NCBI RefSeq assembly: GCF_015206885.1
Contig: NZ_JADEXY010000007.1
Coordinates: 1-59,438 of the forward strand
Reading direction: 5' to 3'
Origin: Microcystis aeruginosa LEGE 91341
GTDB taxonomy: Bacteria > Cyanobacteriota > Cyanobacteriia > Cyanobacteriales > Microcystaceae
DNA length: 59,438 bases
The translations under genes and the position numbers were made by a program. This document shows positions 4,147 through 41,461 of the stretch, piece by piece. Under the pieces are notes generated by a model. It saw only the letters and a list, made by a program, of their open reading frames with translations, was not told the origin of the DNA and did no database searches. Every line of letters begins with the position of its first letter. Position 1 is the stretch's first letter.

Positions 4147-5358
4147 ATGAAAGCAAGTGAGGTACTGGATTTATATGCCAAAGGGAAACGCAATTTTACA
4201 GGAGTAAAATTAAAAGGACAGTGTTTTCAAGGACAGAATTTATCAGGGGCTAATTTTAGTAAAGCAGATCTGCGTGGTACTAATTTTCAAGGAGCTATTT
4301 TAGAGAAAACTAAATTTACCGAGGCTAGGGCAGGATTACTAAAGCGCGGTCGGCTACAATTAATTTTAATTTCTTGGTTAATAGCGGCTATCTGCGGCTT
4401 TGTGTGGGGATTAGCCAGTTATTATCTAGCTTTAATGCTGGTGACGGATGTAACCCAATTTAAAATCATTGCTGCGGTGATAATCACGATTTTATCCCTA
4501 ATTTATGGAAGATTTTATCGTCAGCGAGTTGGGGGATTACCCTTAGTTTTATCCTTGATTTCTGGTCAATCAACAAGTTTTATTCTAGCAATTTCCATCA
4601 GCTTAATTTTAACTTTATTGACAGTAATTATCTTGGCTTTTCAGGGAGCATTAGCAGGAATAGCCGTGATGAATGGAACTTTTTCTATAGCTTTAATTGT
4701 TGGGGTTTGTGGTACTTTATTCACCGCTTATCTGGCCTGGTTATCCCTAGAAGAATCGAGAGAAACAATCACAAAATCGATAGCAATTGCTTTTTTAGCC
4801 AGTCAAGGTACGAATTTTTGCGGCGCAAATCTTAAAGAAGCGGATTTCACGGGAGCGCAGTTAAAAGCCACTGATTTAAGGGCAAAAGATTTAACTAGAA
4901 CTCGATTTTATCTGGTATCGGGCATCGAGCGAGCGCGTTGGGAAAAGACAATTTTAGCCGAAGTGGCGATGAGAAATCTTCTGGTTACTGGTCAAGGGGA
5001 AAATAAAGCTTATATTGGCTATAATTTTCGTGGAGTAAATCTTTCCGGGTTTAACTTCAAAAATGCCAACCTGACTAGGGCAAATTTGAGTGAGGCAAAT
5101 TTAGCCTACGCTAATCTAGAAGGGGCAAATTTAGCCCATAGTAACGTGATGAGAGCCAATTTACAGGCAGCTACCCTGACGGGTGCTTGTATCGAAGCTT
5201 GGAAAATCGCCGAAAATACCAATTTAGAAGGGGTTGATTGTGATTATATCTATTTAGTCGAGTCCGACCAAGAGCGCCGTCCTAGGGAGGGAGAATTTGG
5301 GGAAGGGGAATTCCGGCAATTGGCTCTGGAGCAGCGAAAATTGTATATTGACGAATAG
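4147..5358 (+). CDS. Pentapeptide-repeat protein with central membrane domain
   Basis: A 403-residue protein with a three-part layout. N-terminal pentapeptide repeats (about 20-50, A-N/D-L-x-x style: LSGANFSKADLRGTNFQGA) are followed by several membrane helices (about 75-215). A second, longer pentapeptide array follows (about 220-350, e.g. ANLTRANLSEANLAYANLEG). The charged tail is 50 residues. Pentapeptide arrays fold as right-handed beta-helices; the role of membrane-inserted cyanobacterial versions is not known. I chose the ATG at 4147 over an upstream in-frame TTG because AGAGG lies 5 bases before it. Confidence 0.85.
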   Translation: MKASEVLDLYAKGKRNFTGVKLKGQCFQGQNLSGANFSKADLRGTNFQGAILEKTKFTEARAGLLKRGRLQLILISWLIAAICGFVWGLASYYLALMLVTDVTQFKIIAAVIITILSLIYGRFYRQRVGGLPLVLSLISGQSTSFILAISISLILTLLTVIILAFQGALAGIAVMNGTFSIALIVGVCGTLFTAYLAWLSLEESRETITKSIAIAFLASQGTNFCGANLKEADFTGAQLKATDLRAKDLTRTRFYLVSGIERARWEKTILAEVAMRNLLVTGQGENKAYIGYNFRGVNLSGFNFKNANLTRANLSEANLAYANLEGANLAHSNVMRANLQAATLTGACIEAWKIAENTNLEGVDCDYIYLVESDQERRPREGEFGEGEFRQLALEQRKLYIDE

Positions 5359-5468
5359 GATAACTGCGATAAAAAGCTAAAATTGCCGCGCCGAGGCGGA
5401 CAATTAGAGGGATAATAAGACCAGCCTTAACACCTATCCCCCGACTGGTAACTGATCACTGATAAGCG

Positions 5469-7112
5469 ATGGTGAATATTTCTAATCAAGTTACACCCAA
5501 TTGGGGACTAGCGCCCCTGGCAAAAGTCCCCGAAGTCCAAATCCTAGCGGCGATCGATATTGGTACGAATTCGGTTCACATGGTAGTGGTGAAAATTGAA
5601 CCGTCTTTACCCGCTTTTACGATTATTGCCCGAGAAAAGGATACAGTCCGTCTGGGCGATCGAGATAGAAAAACTGGTAAATTAACCCTAGCGGCCATGG
5701 AAAGAGCGATCGCTGCTTTAAAACGCTGTCACGATCTGGCTATTAGTCTCCATGCGGATCAGATTATTGCCGTGGCCACCAGCGCCACCCGGGAAGCGGC
5801 CAATGGTGACGAATTTTTGGCTTTAATCGAGAAAGAAGTCGGTATTTCCGTAAATCTCATCTCGGGACAGGAGGAAGCGCGCCGGATTTATCTCGGTGTC
5901 GTCTCGGGGATGGATTTCCAAAATCAAGCCCATATTATTATCGATATTGGTGGCGGTTCCACGGAATTAATCTTAGCCGATAGTCAAGAAATTCGCTTTC
6001 TTAGTAGTACCAAAATCGGCGCGGTGCGTTTGAGCCAAGATTTCATCACCACCGATCCCATTAGTACCACAGAATTAGCCTATTTAAGAGCCTACACCAG
6101 GGGAATGTTGGAGCGGGCAGTAGAGGAAATTAAACATCATTTACAGGTGGGAGAAGTGCCGCGTTTAGTGGGAACTTCTGGGACGATTGAAACTTTGATG
6201 ACTATCCATGCTTTGGAGAAATTGGGGTTAATTCCCAATCCTTTAAATGGCTATCAATTAACCCGCAAAGATGTCAAAGAATTGGTCAAACGTTTCGCTA
6301 CTTTGGACTATCACCAAAGACTGGCAATTCTGGGGATGTCCGATAAACGGGCCGAGATAATTCTAGCTGGTTCGATCGTGCTTTTGGAAGCGATGACCAT
6401 GTTAGATGTTGATAGGTTAGTTCTCTGTGAAAGGGCCCTGCGAGAAGGAGTAATCGTAGATTGGATGCTGACGCACGGGTTAATTGATAATCGGTTACTT
6501 TATCAGAGTGAAATCCGTCAGCGCAGTGTCTTGAAAATAGCGAAAAAGTATCAAGTTAATTTAGAATCGGCCGAGAGAATAGCGACATTTTCTCTGTCTT
6601 TGTTCGAGCAAACCCAAGCACAATTACATTCTTGGAATCAGGAAGCTAAGGATTTATTATGGGCGGCGGCAATTTTACATAATAGTGGTTTATATGTTAG
6701 TCATGCTGCCCATCATAAACATTCCTATTATTTAATTCGCAATGGTGAACTGTTGGGCTATACAGAAATAGAGTTAGAAGTTATCGCTAATATCGCTCGT
6801 TATCATCGCAAAAGTAAACCGAAGAAAAGACACGATGATTTTATGAAATTAACGGAATATTATCAGTATATGGTCAAACATTTAAGTGCTATACTGCGCT
6901 TGGCTGTGGCTTTAGATCGGCGACAAATAGGAGCAATTAAAAAGATTGAATGTAAGTACGATCCCGAATATAGAACCCTACATCTGCATCTTTTTCCCAA
7001 TAATGCTGAAGATGATTGTGCTTTAGAATTATGGAGTTTAGACTATAAAAAACCTGTTTTTGAGGAAGAGTTTGGGGTGAAAGTAGTGGCAACTTTGGCA
7101 TTTTTGCCCTGA
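5469..7112 (+). CDS. ppx: Exopolyphosphatase / pppGpp phosphohydrolase (Ppx/GppA)
   Basis: A 547-residue Ppx/GppA enzyme, releasing phosphate from polyphosphate chains and/or converting pppGpp to ppGpp. The actin-like ATPase fold motifs are present: AIDIGTNSVHMVV near residue 30 and IIDIGGGSTELIL near 158. The later GTSGTIET loop is also present. The C-terminal 180 residues form the HD-like helical domain (ILHNSGLYVSHAAHHKHS). Length and layout are normal for cyanobacteria. It follows the pentapeptide gene by 110 bases. Ppx versus GppA activity cannot be separated from sequence alone. Confidence 0.92.
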   Translation: MVNISNQVTPNWGLAPLAKVPEVQILAAIDIGTNSVHMVVVKIEPSLPAFTIIAREKDTVRLGDRDRKTGKLTLAAMERAIAALKRCHDLAISLHADQIIAVATSATREAANGDEFLALIEKEVGISVNLISGQEEARRIYLGVVSGMDFQNQAHIIIDIGGGSTELILADSQEIRFLSSTKIGAVRLSQDFITTDPISTTELAYLRAYTRGMLERAVEEIKHHLQVGEVPRLVGTSGTIETLMTIHALEKLGLIPNPLNGYQLTRKDVKELVKRFATLDYHQRLAILGMSDKRAEIILAGSIVLLEAMTMLDVDRLVLCERALREGVIVDWMLTHGLIDNRLLYQSEIRQRSVLKIAKKYQVNLESAERIATFSLSLFEQTQAQLHSWNQEAKDLLWAAAILHNSGLYVSHAAHHKHSYYLIRNGELLGYTEIELEVIANIARYHRKSKPKKRHDDFMKLTEYYQYMVKHLSAILRLAVALDRRQIGAIKKIECKYDPEYRTLHLHLFPNNAEDDCALELWSLDYKKPVFEEEFGVKVVATLAFLP

Positions 7113-7211
7113 AATCATGAGCGGTGAGTCGCTTGAAATCGGCAAGATGGAAATTTTCGAGACTTGTTACCTATTATTCTAGTCCAAGATTATCGATCGA
7201 GGTAAATTGAT

Positions 7212-24574: not shown

Positions 24575-24652
24575 TAGTAAATCCGTTTTTAAGCCCTCAC
24601 TTTTGGCGGATTATTAATATAATGTTAATTGAGCTTAGAAGGAGATAAATCG

Positions 24653-25081
24653 ATGACGGCATCCTATGAGCAAGACTTTGGACTTTGGGCCGAACAAATG
24701 GCCGATTTATTAGCCTCTGGTCGGTTTTCTGAGTTAGATATTGAGAATTTAGTCGAAGAGGTGCGGGATTTGTCGAAACGGGAGCGCGATCGCTTACTTG
24801 CTAGTCTAAGATTAATTTTGCATCATTTATTAAAGTGGGACTATCAACCTCAACGGCGATCGCACAGTTGGTTGGGAACTATTCAAGGAGAAAGAGCTAA
24901 TATTAGGCTTTATTTGGACGATAGCCCCAGTTTAAGGCGATATTTAACCGATGAAAGCCTATTTAAACTCTATGCTGTTGCTTGTTCCGATGCCTTTAGA
25001 GAGACGGGATTAGAGTTTCCCCCCGTTTGTCCCTACGGTATTGAGGATATTTTAAATCGTTCTCTTCATTTGTCGGAATGA
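24653..25081 (+). CDS. DUF29 family protein
   Basis: A 142-residue DUF29 protein, an abundant cyanobacterial family of unknown role, often in many paralogues per genome. It has the typical start (YEQDFGLWAEQMADLL), the LDIENLVEEVRDLSKRERDRL helix and LRLILHHLLKWDYQPQ. The C-terminus has AYGIEDIL-like YGIEDILNRSLHL. The start is set by GAAGGAG 9 bases before the ATG. A damaged paralogue with near-identical upstream DNA is at 36436. It lies 65 bases before the NACHT gene; a functional link is not known. Confidence 0.85.
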   Translation: MTASYEQDFGLWAEQMADLLASGRFSELDIENLVEEVRDLSKRERDRLLASLRLILHHLLKWDYQPQRRSHSWLGTIQGERANIRLYLDDSPSLRRYLTDESLFKLYAVACSDAFRETGLEFPPVCPYGIEDILNRSLHLSE

Positions 25082-25145
25082 TAGGCGAAAAACGATTAAA
25101 GTTGGTAAGCTTAGATAGTATCCACAGGATCTTAAGTTTATCGCC

Positions 25146-28100
25146 ATGATTGACTGGTTAATTGTCTGGGGGGTTACTCAAGCCGCAGGTTCGCTTGTTC
25201 GTTCAGTAATGCAAGAGTTGGCCATAGAGGGTGCAAAAGATTACGGAAAGGAATTTTTTAAAAATAGTCTAGGTAAAGTGTTACATTTACCCGAAAAAGA
25301 TGTTCAAAAAGAAGCTTATGGAAAAGCAATGAAGGAGTTTTTAGAACTCTTTCAGCAACAGTTAGAAATGGCCGATCTGGAGGATGATCAAATTAAAAAC
25401 TTTGAAAAACCCCTCAAGACTTTTATTAAAGATGACCAAGTTAAACCTATTTTAGGGGATGCTTTTGATATTGATTGTCAAGTTCTTGATAATTTTACGT
25501 TAGCTCAATCTTGGCAAAGACTTAATTTACCCCCGTTACCTGCTGAATTTAACTGGGAAAAACTCAGTAAATTTTATTTGAGAAAAACTCAGTAAATTAT
25601 TCAAAATTCTGAAAAGTTAAGAGCCGTTTTTTTAGTTCAGTTACAGGATAAAAATAGCCAAAATATTCAAGAAATAGCAGGAGTTAAAACAGATTATAAT
25701 TTAGATAACTATGCGGAAGGCTTAAAAAAGGAATATGGCCATCTTAAATTAGAATGTTTAGACACAACGACTTATGAGCAAATTAAACTCTGGCGAATGT
25801 TTGTGCCGCAAAATGTGAGACGATGCAAACAATTTATTCCTCAACTTTATGAATTACCTAAAGAAGTGCTGCAGGAACTTGTAGATAGGGGAGAAATTAC
25901 TCAAGCGGAGTTAGAACAAATACAAGCAGAACTAGAACGAAAACGGCGAGAATATGTCAATGAAAAATTAGATCCTGTTTTGGATATCGTCAATTCTTCT
26001 GAATACCGACGAACTGTAATTTTAGGCGATCCGGGGGCGGGAAAATCGAGTTTATTGCAGTATTTAGCTTTAAATTGGGCTGAAAAAGAACTCAGTCAGC
26101 GTGTTTTGCTTCCCCTTCCTCTTTTGATAGAATTGCGTATTTATGCCAGAGATAAAGATGAAAAAAAATGTCAGAATATTCTAGAATTTTTCCATCAAGG
26201 TAATCTGATTTGTCATCTCAATCAACTTACTTTAGATGATAAGCTTAAAAAGGGTCAAGTTCTTGTGCTTTTTGATGGATTAGATGAAGTTTTTAATCCT
26301 CAATTAAGAGAAGAAATTGTCACGGATATCAAACGTTTTAGTATTCAATATTCTCAAGTGCAGATTATAGTCACTTCTCGCTGGTTAGGATATAAAGCAG
26401 AAGAATTAAATCATGCTGGTTTTGAACATTTTATGATCCAAGATTTAGATAAAGATCAGATTGAAGGTTTTATCAAACGTTGGCATGATTTGGCTTTTGA
26501 AAATCGAGATGATAAAACCCAAAAACAATAACGTTTACAAAAGGCAATTAAGGAGTCAAAAGCGATTCGAGAATTAGCAGGAAATCCTTTATTATTAACG
26601 ATGATGGCTATTCTGAATCGAACTCAAGAATTACCAAGAGATCGCTCAAAACTTTATGAAAAAGCGTCAGAGGTGTTATTACATCAATGGGATTTTGAAA
26701 CCAAGGAAGGATTAATTGATCCTGAACTGAAAAAATATCTTTATAATATTGATCTACGAGATAAAAGGGACATTCTTCGTTTAGTCGCAAGTGCCATACA
26801 AGCAGGGGAAAAAGGGTTAGCTGTTAATTTAATCTATAAGGAAGAATTAGAAAACATTTTGACTCAATATCTTCAAGGAACAGGAATTAACAAACGAGAC
26901 GCTAGTGATCTGACTGATTTAATTATCAAACAACTGCGCTATCGTAATTTTATTCTTTGTTCTTTAGGTGGCAATGCTTTTGCTTTTGTTCATCGAACTT
27001 TTTTAGAATACTTTTGTGCTTGCGAGTTTTATGAAAGATTTAAAAACCGAGGATTACCAGACGGAATTAATCTTGATGAATTGAAAACCAAAGTATTTGG
27101 AGAACATTATTCAGATCCTGTTTGGAAAGAGGTTTTATGTTTATTGATGGGGATGCTAAGTGCAGAATTTCCCAAAGAAATTGCTGAAGAATTAATTAAT
27201 TATCTCATTGATATGGAGGAAAAAGATCAGGAATTTGCTCATCTTTTTTTGGCAGCAGATTGTTATGGAGAATTGCGAAACCAGTCTATTTATGTTGAAC
27301 TAAGTCAGCGATTGTTAGATAGTCTTCAATCCTTAACTAAATCGTCTTATAGGTATGCTGATACTGATTTTAAGGAAAAACCAGTTGCTAAAATTGGAGC
27401 AATTTGGCAAGATGATCCGACAGGATGGAGTGTTCTTCAAGCTATAGCAATTGAGCAAAATTACTGGAGTGGCGCAAGGGAAGCTGTTAATCAATTATCT
27501 AGAATTGCTAAAATTCATTCTGAGGCGTTAGTTTATCTACAGGAAGTTGCTAGACAAGGTGAATCAGCGGCAGGTACAGCAGGTCAAGCTTTAGCCAATT
27601 ATTGGCGAGATAATCCGCAAACTTTACCCATTATTCAACAACTAGCTAACAAGGGTGAATGGGAAGCAATTGAAGCTTTAGTAACCCATTGGCGAGATAA
27701 TCCGCAAACTTTACCCATTATTCAACAACTAGCTAATAAGGGTGAATGGGAAATTATTGAACTTCGTAGAGCATTAGGTAGAATACCAATTGACTCAGAA
27801 ATAGGAGCAATTATCGAAACCATATTATCTAGAAAGGATCTAGATTCTGACATTAAAGAAGAGTTTCGAGAACTTCTTGGGCGTAATAATTTCAGAGAGT
27901 TGAGAATCCCTGATCAATATAGTCAGCACGAAAGCGGCGGCGGTCATTTTTCTACTTTAACAACTAAAATAACTGATGCTGAAATTTTAGTAAAATCTTT
28001 ACAGGATTTGGGAATAATAGTTAAACGTGAAGCAGATGTTCGTGGTTCTAACGGTCAAAGAGTTAGAGTAGATATTGTTGCTGTGCTAGAGGGAGATTAT

Positions 28101-28274
28101 GATCTAGGTTGGATTCGTAATACTGACGGAAGTTTTGACTTGATTGTTGATATATTGGGAGTTGCTAAAAAACATGATCAAACTGAATTGATTAATAGTA
28201 TCAATGCAAAATATGCTGTTAATAAAACCCTTAAAGAAATTAAAGAGAGAGGTTTAAATCAGCGCGATCTCTAA
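25146..28274 (+). pseudogene. NACHT NTPase fused to a Ycf35 (DUF1257) domain; two in-frame stops
   Basis: One 1043-codon frame interrupted by TAA at 25593 (codon 150) and 26529 (codon 462); everything between stays open in the same frame. Layout: N-terminal helical domain (1-215), NACHT with Walker A GDPGAGKS (about 294-301), Walker B VLVLFDGLDEV (about 372-382), sensor and winged-helix parts (GNPLLLTMMAILNR, FVHRTFLEYF). Next is a helical region holding two copies of a 29-residue unit (WRDNPQTLPIIQQLANKGEW). From about 932 to the end is a complete Ycf35-like domain (GHFSTLTTKITDAEILVKSL ... GYDLGW-type core ... AKYAVNKTLKEIK). Bacterial NACHT proteins are antiviral NLR relatives. Both stops replace what look like Gln codons. 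It is either a recent pseudogene, a split protein or a readthrough product. Confidence 0.8.
27601..27752 (+). repeat. Tandem 87-base coding repeat in the NACHT gene
   Basis: Bases 27601-27665 and 27688-27752 differ at one position, spaced exactly 29 codons apart. The unit encodes WRDNPQTLPIIQQLANKGEW. Such near-identity at the DNA level shows a recent duplication, in the region where NLR-type proteins carry variable sensor repeats. Confidence 0.85.
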
Positions 28275-28283
28275 TCTGCTAAT

Positions 28284-28500
28284 TTTGTAGGGTGCGTGTT
28301 TGCGGCTACCAATTCTGTTAAAAAACCAAAATTAACAATCTGCACCCCACGCAGCAAATTTATTATTAAATTGGTGCGTTACGCTTTCGCGCTTTGCACC
28401 CTACGATTTATGTTTTTGTTTGTGGCGATTATCTCTGATAAAAACCTAAATCAACAATCGGCTGTAACACATCAACTTGATCATTAAACTGGTGCGTTAC
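28284..28500. repeat. Family E inverted-repeat element (TTGTAGGGTGCG)
   Basis: One module runs from TTGTAGGGTGCG (28284) to CACCCTACGA (about 28408); a second, single-ended half module (GATTATCTCTGATAAAAACC ... GGTGCGTTACG) follows to 28500. Other copies are at 28986-29211 and 30327-30446. The best copy has perfect 12-base ends TTGTAGGGTGCG / CGCACCCTACAA. Confidence 0.7.
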
Positions 28501-28504
28501 GTTG

Positions 28505-28711
28505 TCAAATATCATCTTCAGTTAATTCTGAATCTTTGAGAATACCTTTTAATGTTCCTATCGGTAAATCTCGATTTCCATGTATTGGTATAACAATAAT
28601 TGCAGAAATATTTTCTTTGGTATAGATATAATGACTTCCTTTAATTCTTGCCAATTTCCAGCCAAATCTTTCAACGACTTTACATAATTTTTTACCTGAG
28701 ATTGACTTCAT
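28505..28711 (-). CDS. hicA: HicA-family toxin (mRNA interferase)
   Basis: A 68-residue double-stranded-RNA-binding-fold toxin that cleaves mRNA. It shows the family order: the helix SGKKLCKVVERFGWKLARIKGSHYIY, which holds the conserved G-S-H catalytic histidine, then VIPIHGNRDLPIGTLKGILKDSEL. Length is normal. Its start overlaps the stop of hicB by 4 bases, so the toxin is translationally coupled behind its antitoxin. No frame damage is visible. Confidence 0.92.
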   Translation of the reverse strand: MKSISGKKLCKVVERFGWKLARIKGSHYIYTKENISAIIVIPIHGNRDLPIGTLKGILKDSELTEDDI

Positions 28712-28914
28712 ACAGAAATCTCCACTAATTGCTGATTCTCTTTTCGATCAAGTAATTTTTTTTCATGAGAAACTTCTAACCAGCCTTCTATTGCCTCTTT
28801 AACCATGACCATCAAATCATCATAATTTTCTGCCCAAGTATGACAACCAGACAAAGCTGGTACAGTTGCACACCAAACATCATCTTCTTGCCAGACAACC
28901 ACTTTGATATTCAT
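28708..28914 (-). CDS. hicB: HicB-family antitoxin
   Basis: A 68-residue partner of HicA. The HicB partial RNase H-like fold is recognisable: VVVWQEDDVWCATVPALSGCHTWAENYDDLMVMVKEAIEGWL. No C-terminal DNA-binding helix-turn-helix or ribbon-helix-helix is present, so self-repression of the operon, if any, must come from another surface. It is first in the two-gene unit. The 358-base gap upstream (28915-29272) carries two family E modules and no other gene. Confidence 0.92.
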   Translation of the reverse strand: MNIKVVVWQEDDVWCATVPALSGCHTWAENYDDLMVMVKEAIEGWLEVSHEKKLLDRKENQQLVEISV

Positions 28915-28985
28915 AATAAATATTTTTTATTGACTAAGATTATTCTAATAATAACATGAATTTGTTTTTTTGTGTAAGCCTGATC

Positions 28986-29211
28986 TTGTAGGGTGCGTTA
29001 GGCAGCGATTATCTCTGATAAAAACCTAAATCAACAATCGGCTGTAACACATCAACTTCATCATTAAATTGGTGCGTTACGCTATCGAATGGCGTACCCG
29101 ACGATTGATGTTTTTGTTTGCGGCGATAATCTCTGACAAAAAACCAAAATCAACAATCGGCTTCATCATTAAATTGGTGCGTTATGCTATCGAATGGCGC
29201 ATCCTACAATT
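28986..29211. repeat. Family E element, double module
   Basis: Begins TTGTAGGGTGCG and contains two GGTGCGTTACGCTATCGAATGGCG-type arms (each under 25 bases), ending CATCCTACAA. It lies directly upstream of the first TumE-type locus; the corresponding single module lies upstream of the second locus, so element and genes were duplicated together. Confidence 0.7.
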
Positions 29212-29272
29212 TATTTTTCTGTTTGAGCGTGATCGTTTATAATCAAAATATCATTATTTTGGAGTAAAAAAA

Positions 29273-29503
29273 ATGCGTAAACAGACCATTCAATATACAT
29301 CATCTTTAGATGCTTTGATTGCTGTTGCCAAGCGACTTAGCGTCTATGAAAACCAACATAAAATGGATTCCGAAGATTTTTATAAGGAATACAATCGGGG
29401 AACATTTTCAGATGATATAATATTTATAGAATGGTCAAACGATTATCGTCATTACCTTGCTTTGCGTCAAGAATTAGAACAAAAATTAAATCATGCTGCT
29501 TAA
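29273..29503 (+). CDS. Antitoxin of TumE-type toxin-antitoxin locus (copy 1)
   Basis: A 76-residue protein, 71 residues identical to the copy at 30512. It has a C-terminal acidic/basic helix (DYRHYLALRQELEQKL). It precedes and overlaps (11 bases) the truncated TumE reading frame, the usual antitoxin-first order. Upstream DNA has TATAAT at 29238 and GGAG 9 bases before the ATG. No DNA-binding motif is obvious. With its toxin truncated, this copy may still neutralise the intact toxin 1.2 kb away. Confidence 0.75.
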   Translation: MRKQTIQYTSSLDALIAVAKRLSVYENQHKMDSEDFYKEYNRGTFSDDIIFIEWSNDYRHYLALRQELEQKLNHAA

Positions 29504-29639
29504 ACTTTTATCTGATTACCTCAATCAAGTAGAGCAAGCAATTGTGCAGTGTGAAAATGCCTATGTAGAACTTTATCAAGAAGAAATACTGACATCACAA
29601 AGAGCCAACTTAAGAATTAGGTTGCGTTTCAAGCAGTGA
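29493..29639 (+). pseudogene. Truncated TumE-family (DUF6516) toxin
   Basis: The first 48 codons match the intact toxin at 30732 almost exactly (MLLKLLSDYLNQVEQAIVQC). After LRFKQ the sequence changes to GATCTTGTAGGGTGCG, a family E end, and TGA follows immediately. The conserved YHFQ...FPHHKH core of the toxin is therefore missing. The break point at an element end suggests insertion or element-mediated deletion. Confidence 0.75.
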
Positions 29640-29810
29640 TCGCCGATCTTGTAGGGTGCGTTCCCTGATGCAACCCTTGTTACTCCATTCGTTTGATGAT
29701 GGGGAACGCACCACCAAACACGGAATATTCAGTGGATTAGGGTGTTAGGGGTTTGGGAAGGAGAATTTAGATTAAAATAGATAACAGATAATTAGCAAAG
29801 TCTGCTCATA

Positions 29811-30086
29811 ATGCCGAATATTATCTGGTCGGATTACTTACAATATCGAGCCAAACTGAGAGGATTTGAACTTGCTAAAATAGAAGAGATTCTCAAATAC
29901 TCTGGAGAAAGGTACTACGATACTGAAACGGGTCGTCTTATTGCCGTAGGCAAGCATGATAATCGTTTAGTAATTATTCCTTATGAATACGATGATAATT
30001 TTATAACTCCTGTCACCATTCATGCGACAACACGCCAACAAATTCGATTTCGCCTAACAACTGGGAGATATACTATCCATGAGTAA
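29811..30086 (+). CDS. DUF4258-like putative toxin
   Basis: A 91-residue basic protein: a helix (WSDYLQYRAKLRGFELAKIEEILKYSGERYYD), then strands (TGRLIAVGKHDNRLVIIPYEYDD) and a closing ATTRQQIRFRLTTGRYTIHE. This order (helix, then a beta sheet with a late R-x-R-x-x-T-G-R) is that of DUF4258/BrnT-like RNase-type toxins. It overlaps by 8 bases the DUF2283 gene behind it, a pairing common in cyanobacteria. Toxin activity is inferred from family and pairing. Confidence 0.65.
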   Translation: MPNIIWSDYLQYRAKLRGFELAKIEEILKYSGERYYDTETGRLIAVGKHDNRLVIIPYEYDDNFITPVTIHATTRQQIRFRLTTGRYTIHE

Positions 30087-30303
30087 CCCTAAAATGAGAT
30101 ACTTTGAACAAGAAGACATTCTTCATTTAACTATTTCTGATGAACCAGAAGCTAAAAGTGTAGAAATTAATCCAAATATTACCGCTGAACTTAATGATTT
30201 AGGAGAATTAATTGGCCTAGAGATTACCAATGCTAGTTCTTTTATCCGAGATTCAATTTTAGAGTCAACCCAAGGAAAAATATTAAATTTGTCCGCCCAA
30301 TGA
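30079..30303 (+). CDS. DUF2283 putative antitoxin
   Basis: A 74-residue acidic protein with the DUF2283 pattern: KMRYFEQEDILHLTISDEPEAKSVEINPNITAELNDLGELIGLEI. It starts within the last codons of the DUF4258-like gene (ATGAGTAAC in the ...CATGAG end), giving translational coupling, and here the order is toxin first. DUF2283 proteins are the usual partners of such small toxins. Confidence 0.75.
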   Translation: MSNPKMRYFEQEDILHLTISDEPEAKSVEINPNITAELNDLGELIGLEITNASSFIRDSILESTQGKILNLSAQ

Positions 30304-30326
30304 CTTATTGAGTGCGATCGCCGCTC

Positions 30327-30446
30327 TTGTAGGGTGCGTTAGGCGGCGATAATTTCTGATAAAAAACTCAAATTAACAATCCGCCGTAACACATCAACTT
30401 CATTATTAAATTGGTGCGTTACGCTATCGAATGGCGCACCCTACAA
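30327..30446. repeat. Family E element, best-preserved copy
   Basis: Perfect 12-base terminal inverted repeats (TTGTAGGGTGCG at 30327 and CGCACCCTACAA ending 30446) enclose about 95 bases. It lies directly before the second TumE-type locus. Confidence 0.75.
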
Positions 30447-30511
30447 TTTATGTTTCTGTTTGAGCGCGATCGTTTATAATCAAAATATCATTATTTTGGA
30501 GTAAAAGAAAA

Positions 30512-30742
30512 ATGCGTAAACAGACCATTCAATATACATCATCTTTAGATGCTTTGATTGCTGTTGCCAAGCGACTTAGCGTCTATGAAAATCAACATAA
30601 AATGGATTCCGAAGATTTTTATAACGAATACAATCAGGGAACGTTGTCAGATGATATAATATTTATAGAATGGGCAAACGATTATCGTCATTACCTTGCT
30701 TTGCGTCAAGAATTAGAACAAAGATTAAATCATGCTGCTTAA
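30512..30742 (+). CDS. Antitoxin of TumE-type toxin-antitoxin locus (copy 2, intact pair)
   Basis: A 76-residue near-duplicate of the protein at 29273; changes include K38N, R42Q, F46L and S55A. It is followed by the complete TumE toxin with an 11-base overlap. The upstream block (TTTGAGCGCGATCGTTTATAATC, then TTTTGGAGTAAAAG) is shared with copy 1, so both keep the same promoter-like and ribosome-site sequence. Confidence 0.78.
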   Translation: MRKQTIQYTSSLDALIAVAKRLSVYENQHKMDSEDFYNEYNQGTLSDDIIFIEWANDYRHYLALRQELEQRLNHAA

Positions 30743-31115
30743 ACTTTTATCTGATTACCTCAATCAAGTAGAGCAAGCAATTGTGCAGTGTGAAAATGCC
30801 TATGTAGAACGTTATCAAGAAGAAATACTGACATCACAAAGAGCCAACTTAATAATTAGGCTGCGTTTCAAGCAGACCCATTTATTAGAAATAAACGAAG
30901 CTATAATAATCACAGACAATTACTTAGAATTCCTAGATTATCGTTACCATTTCCAAGATGAAAAAAATAACCTAGTTTTTCGTTATGATAGTACCCCTCA
31001 CTTTCCCAATCTCTCTACTTTTCCCCATCACAAGCATTTACCAAACGATGTAATTAGTTGTCACAAACCTGAAATTACTCAAGTCTTAACAGAAGCAACA
31101 GAGTTATTGAGGTAA
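30732..31115 (+). CDS. TumE-family (DUF6516) toxin
   Basis: A 127-residue toxin. The N-terminal helix (LLKLLSDYLNQVEQAIVQC) is followed by beta strands (NLIIRLRFKQTHLLEINEAIII) and the family core YRYHFQDEKNNLVFRYDSTPHFPN, FPHHKH. The HHKH cluster is the hallmark of DUF6516 and probably its active or metal site. TumE-type pairs stabilise plasmids or act as stress modules. Complete length, no internal damage. Confidence 0.85.
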   Translation: MLLKLLSDYLNQVEQAIVQCENAYVERYQEEILTSQRANLIIRLRFKQTHLLEINEAIIITDNYLEFLDYRYHFQDEKNNLVFRYDSTPHFPNLSTFPHHKHLPNDVISCHKPEITQVLTEATELLR

Positions 31116-31235
31116 ATAAAACCTATTTAATGCGATCGCTGATCTGGTAGATTGCGTTAGACAACAATCCCAACATTAGGGGCGCAAAGAACTTGCCCCC
31201 TCTGGATATCACGGTAATTCCCCTGACCGTAGCTT

Positions 31236-35451: not shown

Positions 35452-36159
35452 ATGTTGGTTCCCCTTACCCGTCAATCGATCGAGCAAATTGTCCCAATTA
35501 TCGCCACAGGCCCCCAGTACGCCCACTATTGGGGTAAATGGTCTGATTTTCTGCGCCGTTTATTTATTTCTATCATCGCTCTCACCGCAGCTTGGTTAAT
35601 CGGTAATTTATTCGGCCCTGGTGGTTTAACGATTAAACTGATTTTCGACATTATCGCCGGTTTATATTGGCTCTGGGGTCCGGTCTATTGGGCCAGTGTT
35701 CGCAATAATACCTATCGTCGTCTTCCCTACGGGGGGTTTTGGCGCGGTCGCGTTTTCGATGCTTTTGTAACCGAGGAATTAATCGGGGAAGAAGAAAGGG
35801 TAAATAAACGCGGGGAATTAGAGATTATCGAAAATCGCCAGCGCTGTATTAATCTAGAAATCGGTGATCAAACTGGCTTTTCGGCGATCGTTCGCGCTCC
35901 CCTCAAACGCATCCATAAATCGATCCGTCCCGGGATGGTGGCCGAAGCTTTGTTAATGTCTCGAGACCCCGATTTAGGGGATATCAATCAGCTTTCTGAT
36001 GTCCATCTTCCCCAACTCGACCAGTGGATAGGGGAATATCCTGTGCTGCGACGGGATATTTTTCAGCAAGTTAGTCGAGAATTAGGAGGGGGAAAAGAAC
36101 CCCGGACAAAACCTTCTCGTTACTCTAATAATGTCATCCGAAGACGCAAAACCCGTTAA
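35452..36159 (+). CDS. Conserved cyanobacterial membrane protein
   Basis: A 235-residue protein. Two membrane helices lie at about 35-52 (LFISIIALTAAWLIGNLFG) and 58-80 (LIFDIIAGLYWLWGPVYWA). A soluble C-terminal domain (about 95-200, FDAFVTEELIGEEERVNKRGELEII ... IGDQTGFSAIVRAPLKRIHKSIRPGM) and a basic tail (NNVIRRRKTR) follow. Orthologues occur across cyanobacteria and are sometimes mislabelled phosphate ABC permease; I see no ABC permease motif. Function unknown. Confidence 0.75.
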   Translation: MLVPLTRQSIEQIVPIIATGPQYAHYWGKWSDFLRRLFISIIALTAAWLIGNLFGPGGLTIKLIFDIIAGLYWLWGPVYWASVRNNTYRRLPYGGFWRGRVFDAFVTEELIGEEERVNKRGELEIIENRQRCINLEIGDQTGFSAIVRAPLKRIHKSIRPGMVAEALLMSRDPDLGDINQLSDVHLPQLDQWIGEYPVLRRDIFQQVSRELGGGKEPRTKPSRYSNNVIRRRKTR

Positions 36160-36435: not shown

Positions 36436-36644
36436 ATGACGGCATCCTATGAGTAAGACTTTGGACTTTGGGCCGAACAAATGGCCGATTTATTAGCCTC
36501 CGGTCGGTTTTCCGAGTTAGATATTGAGAATTTAGTCGAACAGGTGCGGGATTTGTCGAAACGGGAGCGCGATCGCTTACTCGCTAGTGTGAGATTAATT
36601 TCGCATCATTTATTAAAGTGGGACTATCAACCTCAACGGCGATC
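36436..36644 (+). pseudogene. Broken DUF29 paralogue
   Basis: Near-identical to 24653-24860 including the GAAGGAG ribosome site. Codon 7 is TAA where the intact copy has CAA (Gln). Homology ends at CGGCGATC (36644), where the intact gene continues in its 3' half. What follows to 36756 is unrelated low-complexity sequence. A downstream ATG (36481) could start a 91-residue fragment, but half the domain is gone. Confidence 0.85.
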
Positions 36645-36883
36645 CCGTAGGGCGGTTTCATTTAAATTAAGTACAGCTGATTTTGAGTCAATAAATTTGA
36701 CTGAAGATTCTCAAGTTTATCTTTCTCTAACTAAAAGAGTTAGTCACAATAATTAATCTTTAATCTTCTGCTCATATTTATTATGAAGAGATTGATACAG
36801 CTTGTTAACAAACCACTAAAAGCCTATCTCTCTTGAAATTGTCTGAGAGTACATCCTGTTAATTTAGCTGATTTTTCTGCTTC

Positions 36884-39522: not shown

Positions 39523-40167
39523 TTAAGGACGACTATTGATGTTAAGTTCTTGCACTAATTTCTGTACTGTGGTTGAGGGATTGGCATCAAAAGGATGTTT
39601 TTTTGCTTCATCTCTATCTTGAATAAGTTTTGCTGTATTAGTGATTGCTGTTGTCTGGTATGGCTTTAATTTTTCGTACATATCCTCTCGATTTTTTGCA
39701 TATTTTTCTTTCTTGTTTAATAATCCATACTTTTTCATCTGGGTATTTAAAATTTTTTGGTATTTACTTCGGGATGTGGCAATATCCAGATATTGAAAGT
39801 GTAAAATAAACCAAATTTCAAAAGCTTCATTAGAATAGGCAATCTTGATGTTTTTTTGTTTAGCCAGTCTTTCCGCTTGATTAAATTGCTCTTTAGAACA
39901 GTTATCTTTATCAAAAACACACCAGATTTGATCGAATGAGTCATCTTGTTTTAGATTATCTATAATCTTAATAGCTTTTTCGACTAAACTCAAGCTATTT
40001 TTACCTTCACCTCGCACCGTAACTTCAATTTTCTTAGGAACATCAAAAGCCTTAAAATAGTTAACTTCAGTTTTTTCTCCCTCGCAAACAATTAAAAATC
40101 TTTTTCTTGTTTTTCTAGTCTTAGTTTGGCGACGCAAATAATCAGAAGTATTCCTGTTGTTACTCAT
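39523..40167 (-). CDS. RloB/AbiLii-like TOPRIM-type effector
   Basis: A 214-residue basic protein of the RloB family. After a Lys/Arg-rich start (RRQTKTRKTRKRF) comes FLIVCEGEKTEVNYFKAF, holding the TOPRIM-like Glu. About 70 residues later is WCVFDKDN, the D-x-D-type metal site, then FEIWFILHFQ. Such proteins are probable nucleases acting with the upstream ATPase. The start is ATG at 40167, 1 base after the ATPase stop; a TTG 12 bases earlier also overlaps. In-order, tightly coupled pair: an abortive-infection-type system. Confidence 0.85.
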   Translation of the reverse strand: MSNNRNTSDYLRRQTKTRKTRKRFLIVCEGEKTEVNYFKAFDVPKKIEVTVRGEGKNSLSLVEKAIKIIDNLKQDDSFDQIWCVFDKDNCSKEQFNQAERLAKQKNIKIAYSNEAFEIWFILHFQYLDIATSRSKYQKILNTQMKKYGLLNKKEKYAKNREDMYEKLKPYQTTAITNTAKLIQDRDEAKKHPFDANPSTTVQKLVQELNINSRP

Positions 40168-40168
40168 A

Positions 40169-41461
40169 CTAATTACCAATAATTGTACTTAAATCACCAA
40201 TAAAAGGTATTGCTCCATAACGACCTTGAATATAATCTTTTTCAAAGGGATTATTATTATTAATATCAGCAAATTCCACCAAAGAATATAAATCTGTTGC
40301 TCCTTGATGATTTTTTTCGGTAAACCAAATTTGATCCCTCCTTAAAAATTTATAACTAAGTAAATTAATATCGTGAGTAGTAAAAATAAGTTGAGCATTT
40401 TTGGGATTAGTTTTCTGAGAATTAAATAATTCGATTATATTTCTAGTCATTAGAGGATGAAGTCTGGCATCCAATTCATCAATTACTAAAACTTCCCCTC
40501 TTTGCAAAGTGTCTAAAATCGGTGCTGACAGAGCAAAAATCTTTTTAGTTCCATCAGATTCATGTTTGTCCATATCAAAAATTTCTAACTCAATCATTTT
40601 ACCTGTTGAGTCATACTTTGGATGATAGGTTTTTATGGTAGCGGACTTTATTTCACCGCTAGAGTCACTGATGATATTTCTGACAACATCCTGTAAATCT
40701 TGCGGGAAACTATCTAAGGAAATTTTTCTCGTTTCTGTTTCTAGGTTCAGATTGTCAATACTTAAATCTAATTTTTTAATTAACTTAGTCACATCATAAA
40801 TCAAATCTTGTCTATCAGAAAGATACTCAAGCGTAATCGCTTTTAATAATTCCACATTTAACCCAGACACAACACCTAAGTGACTAAACCAAGAGACAAT
40901 TTCCACCGCTAGAGAATCATTAAATTGAGCCGCTAGTGATAAAAAGAGAGTATTTTTTTTTGTCAATCCTCTTAGTATATTACCTTGTTCAATATTTTTG
41001 CTATATTCTATTTTATCGCCTTGCCGATTAAAAATTTTAGTTTCACGACTTCTGGGCGTACAAAATAACCATTCGGAAACTACTCGCTTTTGAGTTGCTT
41101 CAAATCCATATCTATAAGTTTTGTTTTTTAGCTGAAAAACTATTTCAAAAAAGGATGGTTTATCAACAGTTTCGGTACTTAATCTAAAGTCTTCCACATC
41201 TATTTTGTCAGTGATTTGTAATTTTGCAGAATTCATGACAAACCGTCGCATAAAATTGAATGCCAGAATTAAATTACTCTTACCACTGGCATTTGCTCCA
41301 TAAATAGCGGCACTTTTCAGTAAACTAAATTGTTGATTAACCTTAAAAACATTATTTTTATCAAGCTCATCATTACTACAGGCATCCTCCACCGCTACCA
41401 TGCTGAGAGTGACTACATCTTTAAAAGAGCGATAATTGCCGACACTAAATCCGATGAGCAT
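40169..41461 (-). CDS. AbiLi/RloA-like AAA ATPase
   Basis: A 430-residue ABC/SMC-type ATPase of the AAA_15/21 group. Walker A is GANASGKSNL (about residue 57) after a typical NYRSFKD start. The signature/Walker B region reads FALSAPILDTLQRGEVLVIDELDARLHPL, with the switch His in IFTTHDINLL. It is the sensor/motor half of the RloA-RloB (AbiL) pair, restricting phage by abortive infection in lactococcal homologues. Both genes are intact. A 168-base gap upstream contains only the chlN terminator. Confidence 0.88.
   Translation of the reverse strand: MLIGFSVGNYRSFKDVVTLSMVAVEDACSNDELDKNNVFKVNQQFSLLKSAAIYGANASGKSNLILAFNFMRRFVMNSAKLQITDKIDVEDFRLSTETVDKPSFFEIVFQLKNKTYRYGFEATQKRVVSEWLFCTPRSRETKIFNRQGDKIEYSKNIEQGNILRGLTKKNTLFLSLAAQFNDSLAVEIVSWFSHLGVVSGLNVELLKAITLEYLSDRQDLIYDVTKLIKKLDLSIDNLNLETETRKISLDSFPQDLQDVVRNIISDSSGEIKSATIKTYHPKYDSTGKMIELEIFDMDKHESDGTKKIFALSAPILDTLQRGEVLVIDELDARLHPLMTRNIIELFNSQKTNPKNAQLIFTTHDINLLSYKFLRRDQIWFTEKNHQGATDLYSLVEFADINNNNPFEKDYIQGRYGAIPFIGDLSTIIGN

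Follow-up and report, generated by a model that had tools for sequence, protein, structure and literature searches.

Plant NLRs with integrated decoys join a domain of a host protein to an NLR-type switch. In bacteria, the NACHT protein bNACHT25 senses through the host protein DnaJ, according to the portion of PMC12169576 that deals with it. The sections of Kaur et al. 2020 (PMC7159879) on ternary conflict systems describe variable C-terminal modules that include GUN4, which the authors read as a sensor of photosynthetic status, and propose decoys. Here we describe a gene of Microcystis aeruginosa LEGE 91341 located at positions 25146-28274 (+) of contig NZ_JADEXY010000007.1 (assembly GCF_015206885.1). 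The 59,438 nucleotides analysed (positions 1 to 59,438) are called the window below. The gene encodes a NACHT protein that ends in DUF1257, a domain of unknown function. We give an even chance to the reading that it is a broken copy of a defence-type NACHT (NLR-like) protein of cyanobacteria, with a captured, truncated DUF1257 of the kind that partners the ATPase Ycf46 as its C-terminal sensor end. Like plant integrated-decoy NLRs, it places a host-protein domain on an NLR-type switch; it differs in that no pathogen factor that binds it is known. It shares with bNACHT25-type proteins an N-terminal domain, a central NACHT with Walker A and B motifs and a C-terminal end, and differs from them in that bNACHT25 has NCH1 and a PD-(D/E)XK nuclease and that the same portion of its description contains no DUF1257 (PMC12169576).

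The window frame has the domain order NNH2, NACHT, a helical region with short HEAT-like repeats, and DUF1257. Genomes, contigs, loci and families are designated below by G, C, L and f numbers, G000 being the window genome. The features are as follows.

25146..25592 (+), NNH2 (NACHT N-terminal helical domain 2; PF22734, 134.3 bits), closed by an in-frame TAA at 25593-25595
25797..26528 (+), NACHT NTPase segment (PF05729, 47.2 bits), closed by a second in-frame TAA at 26529-26531
26025-26048 (+), Walker A motif GDPGAGKS, read by eye
26268-26288 (+), Walker B motif LFDGLDE, read by eye
26601..27577 (+), rest of the NACHT module, with the helical C-terminal region, in the same frame
27578..27761 (+), short tandem HEAT-like repeats WRDNPQTLPIIQQLANKGEWE, with overlapping alignments to several places in G010
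27939..28271 (+), DUF1257 of the Ycf46-partner type without the last strand (PF06868, 67.4 bits), stop at 28272-28274
24629..25081 (+), DUF29 gene immediately upstream of the NACHT gene (PF01724, 143 bits; synteny)

The fusion of NACHT and DUF1257 in one frame, as the original prediction had it, was confirmed by the NNH2 and NACHT matches and by the profile check of the C-terminus. The DUF1257 match lies far above the curated cut-off of 22.2 bits, and chance similarity is excluded because it reaches 67 bits. It spans residues 20-106 of 111 and covers positions 1-87 of the 103 in the profile, short of the full domain length. Two in-frame TAA codons, at 25593 and 26529, split the gene into three open frames, so that the window gene is not a single intact frame, unlike the genes of G010 and G450 described below; both Walker motifs are present in it as in these two intact relatives. 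The window copy is disrupted and probably inactive. Over 26601-27761 the window sequence shares 95% identity with the unbroken protein of G010. The number of HEAT-like repeats varies among genomes (G010 has more than the window, by eye), and the HEAT_2 match in the window repeats is weak and under the cut-off. PADLOC and NCBIfam gave partial matches of the NTPase part only (best PADLOC model PDC-S60, 34 bits; EruA of NCBIfam, 24-45 bits against a cut-off of 1000). PADLOC at 1e-5 gave no match for the G010 and Mojavia fusion proteins, NCBIfam held no family matching DUF1257, and a sequence search of the PDB found no solved relative.

The fused domain had first been taken for a complete Ycf35; it is neither complete nor Ycf35. 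Two further genes of the window genome, on contigs C42 and C58, exceed the DUF1257 cut-off. The C42 gene (128 amino acids (aa), 155 bits) is canonical Ycf35, as indicated by its full-length Pfam match (profile 1-103), the adjoining ferredoxin-like gene and cluster g of PMC4284462, the relevant part of which gives the gene order DUF2997, ycf35, fed7. The fused domain is 28% identical to this canonical Ycf35 and, over about 105 residues, 77-82% (by method) to the C58 paralogue. The C58 gene (117 aa, 80 bits) has an extra final strand that the fused domain lacks, and it is located just downstream of a gene for a 503-aa Ycf46-like AAA ATPase, which we take to be Ycf46 (NCBIfam has no model naming the Ycf46 ATPase). 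In 41/41 free paralogue loci examined, such an ATPase gene was found 134-182 bases upstream on the same strand. The paralogue profile matched in 379/388 genomes of the order, 216/217 of family f33 and 312/388 of the class. Because of the difference in identity and the constant pairing with the ATPase, the source of the fused domain is the Ycf46 partner, and Ycf35 proper was ruled out by its 28% identity. The integrated domain thus comes from a host protein with a role of its own, judging by its presence in 379 of the 388 order genomes and its pairing with the ATPase. The core of the original prediction, that the sensor end of a NACHT protein carries a housekeeping domain of the photosynthetic lineage, stands, with another paralogue in that place. 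A recent local deletion joining two genes was also rejected: the free gene is intact beside Ycf46 elsewhere, other genomes carry the fusion, and by crude counts the synonymous sites of fused and free copies are near or past saturation (synonymous divergence dS 3.0, 2.1 and undefined for the three same-genus fused copies; nonsynonymous divergence dN 0.21-0.22). For these reasons the fusion is not a local accident.

Profile searches with E-value limits of 1e-21 or 1e-22 were used to look for the fusion in samples of other genomes, two of these samples being even draws from a larger group. For each genome at most 12 or 22 first-look candidates were scored, matches were counted per genome, and genomes that gave two or more were searched again. 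Two paralogue-profile matches occurred in 23/388 order genomes, three of which were G000, G010 and G011. The second search took in the remaining 20, a further 11 genomes flagged in f33, G457, and 28 genomes flagged in the class sample. Stretches were inspected from 14 of the 20 order genomes and 7 f33 genomes. Fusion counts are lower bounds, since diverged fusions are missed.

Stop-free fusions, the sign looked for, were found in G010, of the same genus, and in Mojavia pulchra JT2-VF2 (G450). Within the genus, 3/12 genomes carry the NACHT-DUF1257 gene: G000, G010 and G011. The G010 copy is a single uninterrupted frame of 1106 aa (NNH2 190 bits, NACHT 45 bits and DUF1257 65 bits by Pfam), whereas in the G011 copy some 190 additional bases, with a stop among them, separate NNH2 from NACHT, and a further stop stands just ahead of DUF1257. 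Across the order the fusion is present in 5/388 genomes (G000, G010, G011, G255, G351), and G450 adds a case beyond that sample. The Mojavia protein is intact and 1221 aa long (Peptidase_C14 54 bits, NACHT 53, HEAT_2 35, DUF1257 51); it carries Walker A and B motifs and the caspase-like, presumably catalytic motifs GHG and DACRSG. Since its effector-like Peptidase_C14 domain is N-terminal, DUF1257 occupies the sensor end. The G351 protein (855 aa) runs to the contig end, and the disrupted G255 copy, 52% identical to the Mojavia NACHT core, lacks Walker A and a Pfam NACHT match. The claim of a new general class of cyanobacterial NLR-like defence was thus supported as to recurrence and not as to generality, with five of 388 order genomes plus Mojavia. 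Outcomes contrary to the prediction (no DUF1257 match, no other fused genome, an isolated deletion) were sought and none was found.

A quick-method tree of 91 NACHT cores, from which the window copy was left out, placed the five fused rows in three positions (G010 with G011, G351 with G450, and G255). Its starred branches force at least two changes, possibly one gain and one loss, and repeated acquisition within NACHT is weakened as a conclusion because a gain plus a loss may suffice; the occurrence of DUF1257 in two unrelated protein kinds, described below, is unaffected by this. In a DUF1257 tree, mostly unresolved, many fused copies lay on long branches. Fused copies did not group with the free copy of their own host, so a recent capture from each host's own gene was rejected, as far as this poorly resolved tree allows.

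The Ycf46-partner DUF1257 also ends proteins of a second, unrelated kind, encoded beside VWA_CoxE, iSTAND or MoxR-like genes such as make up the iSTAND-MoxR-vWA ternary systems. VWA_CoxE was found by Pfam in L090, L102 and L107, iSTAND by Pfam in L105 and L107, and MoxR-like genes in five loci (by Pfam in L107; by eye in L088, L090, L103 and L105). In L107, iSTAND, MoxR-like and VWA_CoxE genes, all by Pfam, precede the DUF1257 protein; L105 has a Peptidase_C14-iSTAND gene (Pfam) with MoxR- and vWA-like genes (by eye); in L090 and L102 the DUF1257 protein is downstream of VWA_CoxE genes. The full MoxR, vWA and iSTAND set lies beside the fused gene only in L107 and, with MoxR and vWA read by eye, in L105, and none of the three gene types was seen at L104 (G485). 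The window gene differs from these systems: it encodes a NACHT protein and no ternary component, and by eye no MoxR, vWA or iSTAND gene adjoins it. DUF1257 is thus joined to more than one immune-type protein kind, NACHT proteins and proteins of vWA/MoxR/iSTAND operons. Proteins of 430-490 aa end in it in G311, G404, G419, G449 (a genome 38% contaminated according to its own annotation) and G502, and one of 285 aa in G485; in G242 (L090) it is part of a CHAT protein. Shorter frames occur in G060, G273, G362, G196, G367 and G450, all but that of G060 with an apparent zinc ribbon (weak or no Pfam match), and tail-only variants in G325 and G346. At 4575-7151 (-) of L090, the end of the CHAT-DUF1257 protein matches Csx21 models, which come from type III CRISPR neighbourhoods.

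The N-terminal part of the L107 protein has homologues on 6 plasmid records. The three inspected end in GUN4 (Tolypothrix), an FGE-sulfatase domain (Anabaena cylindrica) and a receiver domain (Nostoc carneum), and each follows a MoxR or ATPase gene. Because homologues end in these different domains, DUF1257 occupies a swappable slot. This slot bears on the main rival of a decoy or guard, a GUN4-like physiological sensor: the fused DUF1257 would dock on Ycf46 or its clients, or read photosynthetic or stress state, and switch NACHT on at photosynthetic collapse. GUN4 in the same slot of a homologous protein, together with the photosynthetic-status reading of GUN4 in the consulted sections of Kaur et al. 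(PMC7159879), speaks for it. So does the stress and blue-light regulation of the slr0373-slr0374(Ycf46)-slr0376 operon of Synechocystis, described in the part of PMC7496141 that treats it, in which slr0376 is perhaps the DUF1257 gene, and so does the pairing of the free gene with an AAA ATPase in 41/41 loci. We nevertheless regard such a sensor as rather improbable: it does not by itself account for the missing long fusions of canonical Ycf35, which is also photosynthesis-linked, and the absence of the last strand described next may weaken native docking.

The window domain lacks the last strand, which is NANVKLVVQ in the free gene. This strand was kept in 0/21 altered copies, 34/34 free copies and 5/5 standalone extra copies, some free copies showing variants of it (NANVKLLVQ, KANINLVLH). 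The 21 altered copies are not independent, since three are same-genus relatives and two (G325 and G346) have a C-terminal tail without a fused N-terminal part. Of 72 positions that do not vary among 33 free sequences, 50 retain their residue in 75% or more of 20 altered copies, and 10 in every one of these. After DUF1257 in L093, L094, L095, L100, L088, L102, L105 and L109, a short zinc-ribbon-like stretch, read by eye, replaces the lost strand; some of these loci give weak Pfam matches below the cut-off.

Canonical Ycf35 was used as a control on the same 388 genomes, with a profile made from 3 sequences, two of them nearly alike (E <= 1e-20). It matched in 367 genomes, with two or three matches in 50. 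Among the 103 copies in those 50 genomes no long fusion was found, the longest open frame being 225 aa. Fifty of them are the best match of their genome; the remaining 53, at 76-97 bits, probably belong to a third DUF1257 type. The idea that any DUF1257 type is fused alike was therefore rejected.

Relatives of both DUF1257 and Ycf46 occur in phages. Genes like canonical Ycf35 were found in 15 phage records, several of one phage, from Prochlorococcus phages and marine viruses (34-46% identity); in P-SSM2 a DUF2997 gene adjoins the Ycf35-like gene. IMG/VR gave 139 stretches related to canonical Ycf35, of which 80 loci were kept. Aeromonas phage HJ05 and Rhizobium phage L338C carry, consecutively, a Ycf46-like AAA ATPase (35-36% identity), one further gene, DUF1257 and DUF2997. 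Phages thus carry Ycf46-DUF1257 machinery, as these cassettes and the Ycf35-like genes attest. A DUF1257-like protein of Microcoleus phage My-WqHQDG scored 21.6 bits, just below the Pfam cut-off of 22.2; its last strand is present, and it is 35% identical to the Ycf46-partner type and 31% to Ycf35. The cassettes at 1456-4561 of L192 and 2444-5763 of L193, from the Aeromonas and Rhizobium phages, are a non-cyanobacterial copy of the Ycf46-DUF1257 partnership. Plasmid pPg_01 of Pseudanabaena galeata (L280) has in a row genes for GrpE, Hsp70, DUF1257, an ATP-binding protein, an unknown protein, DUF2997 and an AAA ATPase, a row that suggests a chaperone-like role for DUF1257.

Taken as a whole, the fused DUF1257 most likely mimics a host protein and serves the NACHT switch, at its sensor end, as a decoy or a guard. 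The sequences show where the domain sits; its trigger and the defence role are inferred. In such a protein the output would come from the N-terminal domain (NNH2 in the window; in Mojavia, a caspase-like peptidase), and NACHT would act as the ATP switch, with the repeats as a spring and DUF1257 as the bait. Engagement of the fused copy, either by a phage factor able to bind or modify the Ycf46-DUF1257 machinery or by the Ycf46 machinery itself once disturbed, would release the switch and shut the cell down. In its widest form the proposal makes the truncated Ycf46-partner DUF1257, on NACHT switches and in MoxR-vWA operons, a bacterial counterpart of the plant integrated decoy, set as bait for any phage factor attacking the Ycf46 machinery or taking its place. 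That form is tentative, and we think it possible rather than probable. We know of no phage factor directed against the Ycf46-DUF1257 machinery.

Several observations weigh against the proposal. The fused, Ycf46-partner type had no viral home in IMG/VR in scans with strict patterns. Many second paralogue copies are plain standalone genes (for example in G189, G254, G353, G428 and G432); in the re-search of the class, second copies were mostly frames of up to 197 aa, and five frames in four genomes, of 229-360 aa, are known by length alone. Among the best 80 of 454 related NACHT stretches from GTDB genomes, DUF1257 was found in one, Mojavia itself; most of the others end in repeats or a helical cap, and some leave the contig. 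With fusions so rare and the copies of G000, G011 and G255 disrupted, the trait is often lost. The domain could also have passed between conflict proteins instead of being captured separately from host genes. In addition, crude counts gave ratios of nonsynonymous to synonymous change (dN/dS) of 0.64-0.87 among the three same-genus fused copies, on 3-5 synonymous changes each, which fits relaxed constraint as well as conflict. The same ratio was 0.02 for the Ycf46-like ATPase gene between G000 and G003, and the free DUF1257 gene of these two genomes differs by 5 synonymous and 0 nonsynonymous changes. Finally, the sections of Kaur et al. (PMC7159879) on the vWA component name its C-terminal slot an effector, not a sensor.

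The high ratios within the genus and the three disrupted copies would be expected if a duplicated fragment had joined NACHT genes by chance and were now decaying without function. Such accretion is in our view quite unlikely: the long frames are intact in G010 and Mojavia, DUF1257 is tied to two unrelated kinds of conflict protein, no long fusion of canonical Ycf35 was seen, and the dN of 0.21-0.22 at near-saturated dS, crude as it is, points to long-term constraint on the fused domain.

The effector slot of the vWA component raises another alternative, in which, on activation, the truncated DUF1257 would halt growth by jamming the host Ycf46-DUF1257 machinery as a dominant negative. That 21/21 copies have lost the last strand would suit this, and the same sections of PMC7159879 describe several effectors as inactive copies of host enzymes. 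As an account of the fused domain it is unlikely, since a caspase-like domain that looks complete already fills the effector end of the Mojavia protein; such a role is possible above all in the ternary systems.

Each part of the window protein belongs to a kind already described; what is new, as far as searches of the open-licence literature go, is the captured domain and the fact that it recurs. These searches found DUF1257 in 3 papers and no paper combining it with NACHT (subscription papers and supplements were not covered), and looking for integrated decoys in bacterial antiphage defence turned up four plant papers. The main texts of three papers on bacterial conflict systems (PMC7159879, PMC8195603, PMC10907252) do not contain 'ycf', and '1257' appears in them only in references.

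The surroundings of the gene point to mobility. Where the NACHT gene occurs in G010 and G011, the DUF29 gene comes with it; this gene marks the point of insertion. In G007, no more than about 134 bases separate the DUF29 gene from sequence found at window position 31222. Relative to G007 the window therefore holds some 6.1 kb more after its DUF29 gene (25083-31222), the NACHT gene included. G010 and G011 carry the DUF29-NACHT unit elsewhere, after a gene found at 35452 in the window. The 6.1-kb region looks like a cassette moving between DUF29 copies. A truncated DUF29-like frame lies at 36481-36756 of the window. Directly downstream of the NACHT gene are HicA toxin and HicB-like antitoxin genes (28505-28914, -), in place of which G010 and G011 have other small genes. 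An RloB gene (PF13707) adjoining an AAA_21 ATPase gene (39523-41461, -) is presumably an RloA/RloB-like defence pair. In the same genus, G002 gives no match to the Ycf46-partner DUF1257 at E <= 1e-4 besides its Ycf35-type gene, unlike the other 11 genomes.

In its widest form the proposal would make the Ycf46-DUF1257 pair a recurrent target of cyanophages. If the decoy or guard reading is true, host-protein mimicry would be a sensing strategy of bacterial NLR-like and MoxR-vWA systems, following the logic of plant integrated decoys. The uncharacterised pair would then be something that phages interfere with, and the trigger could be found among binders of free DUF1257. The reading would also give a functional lead for a domain of unknown function, with specific intact genes, of the G010 type and in Mojavia pulchra, in which it may be followed.

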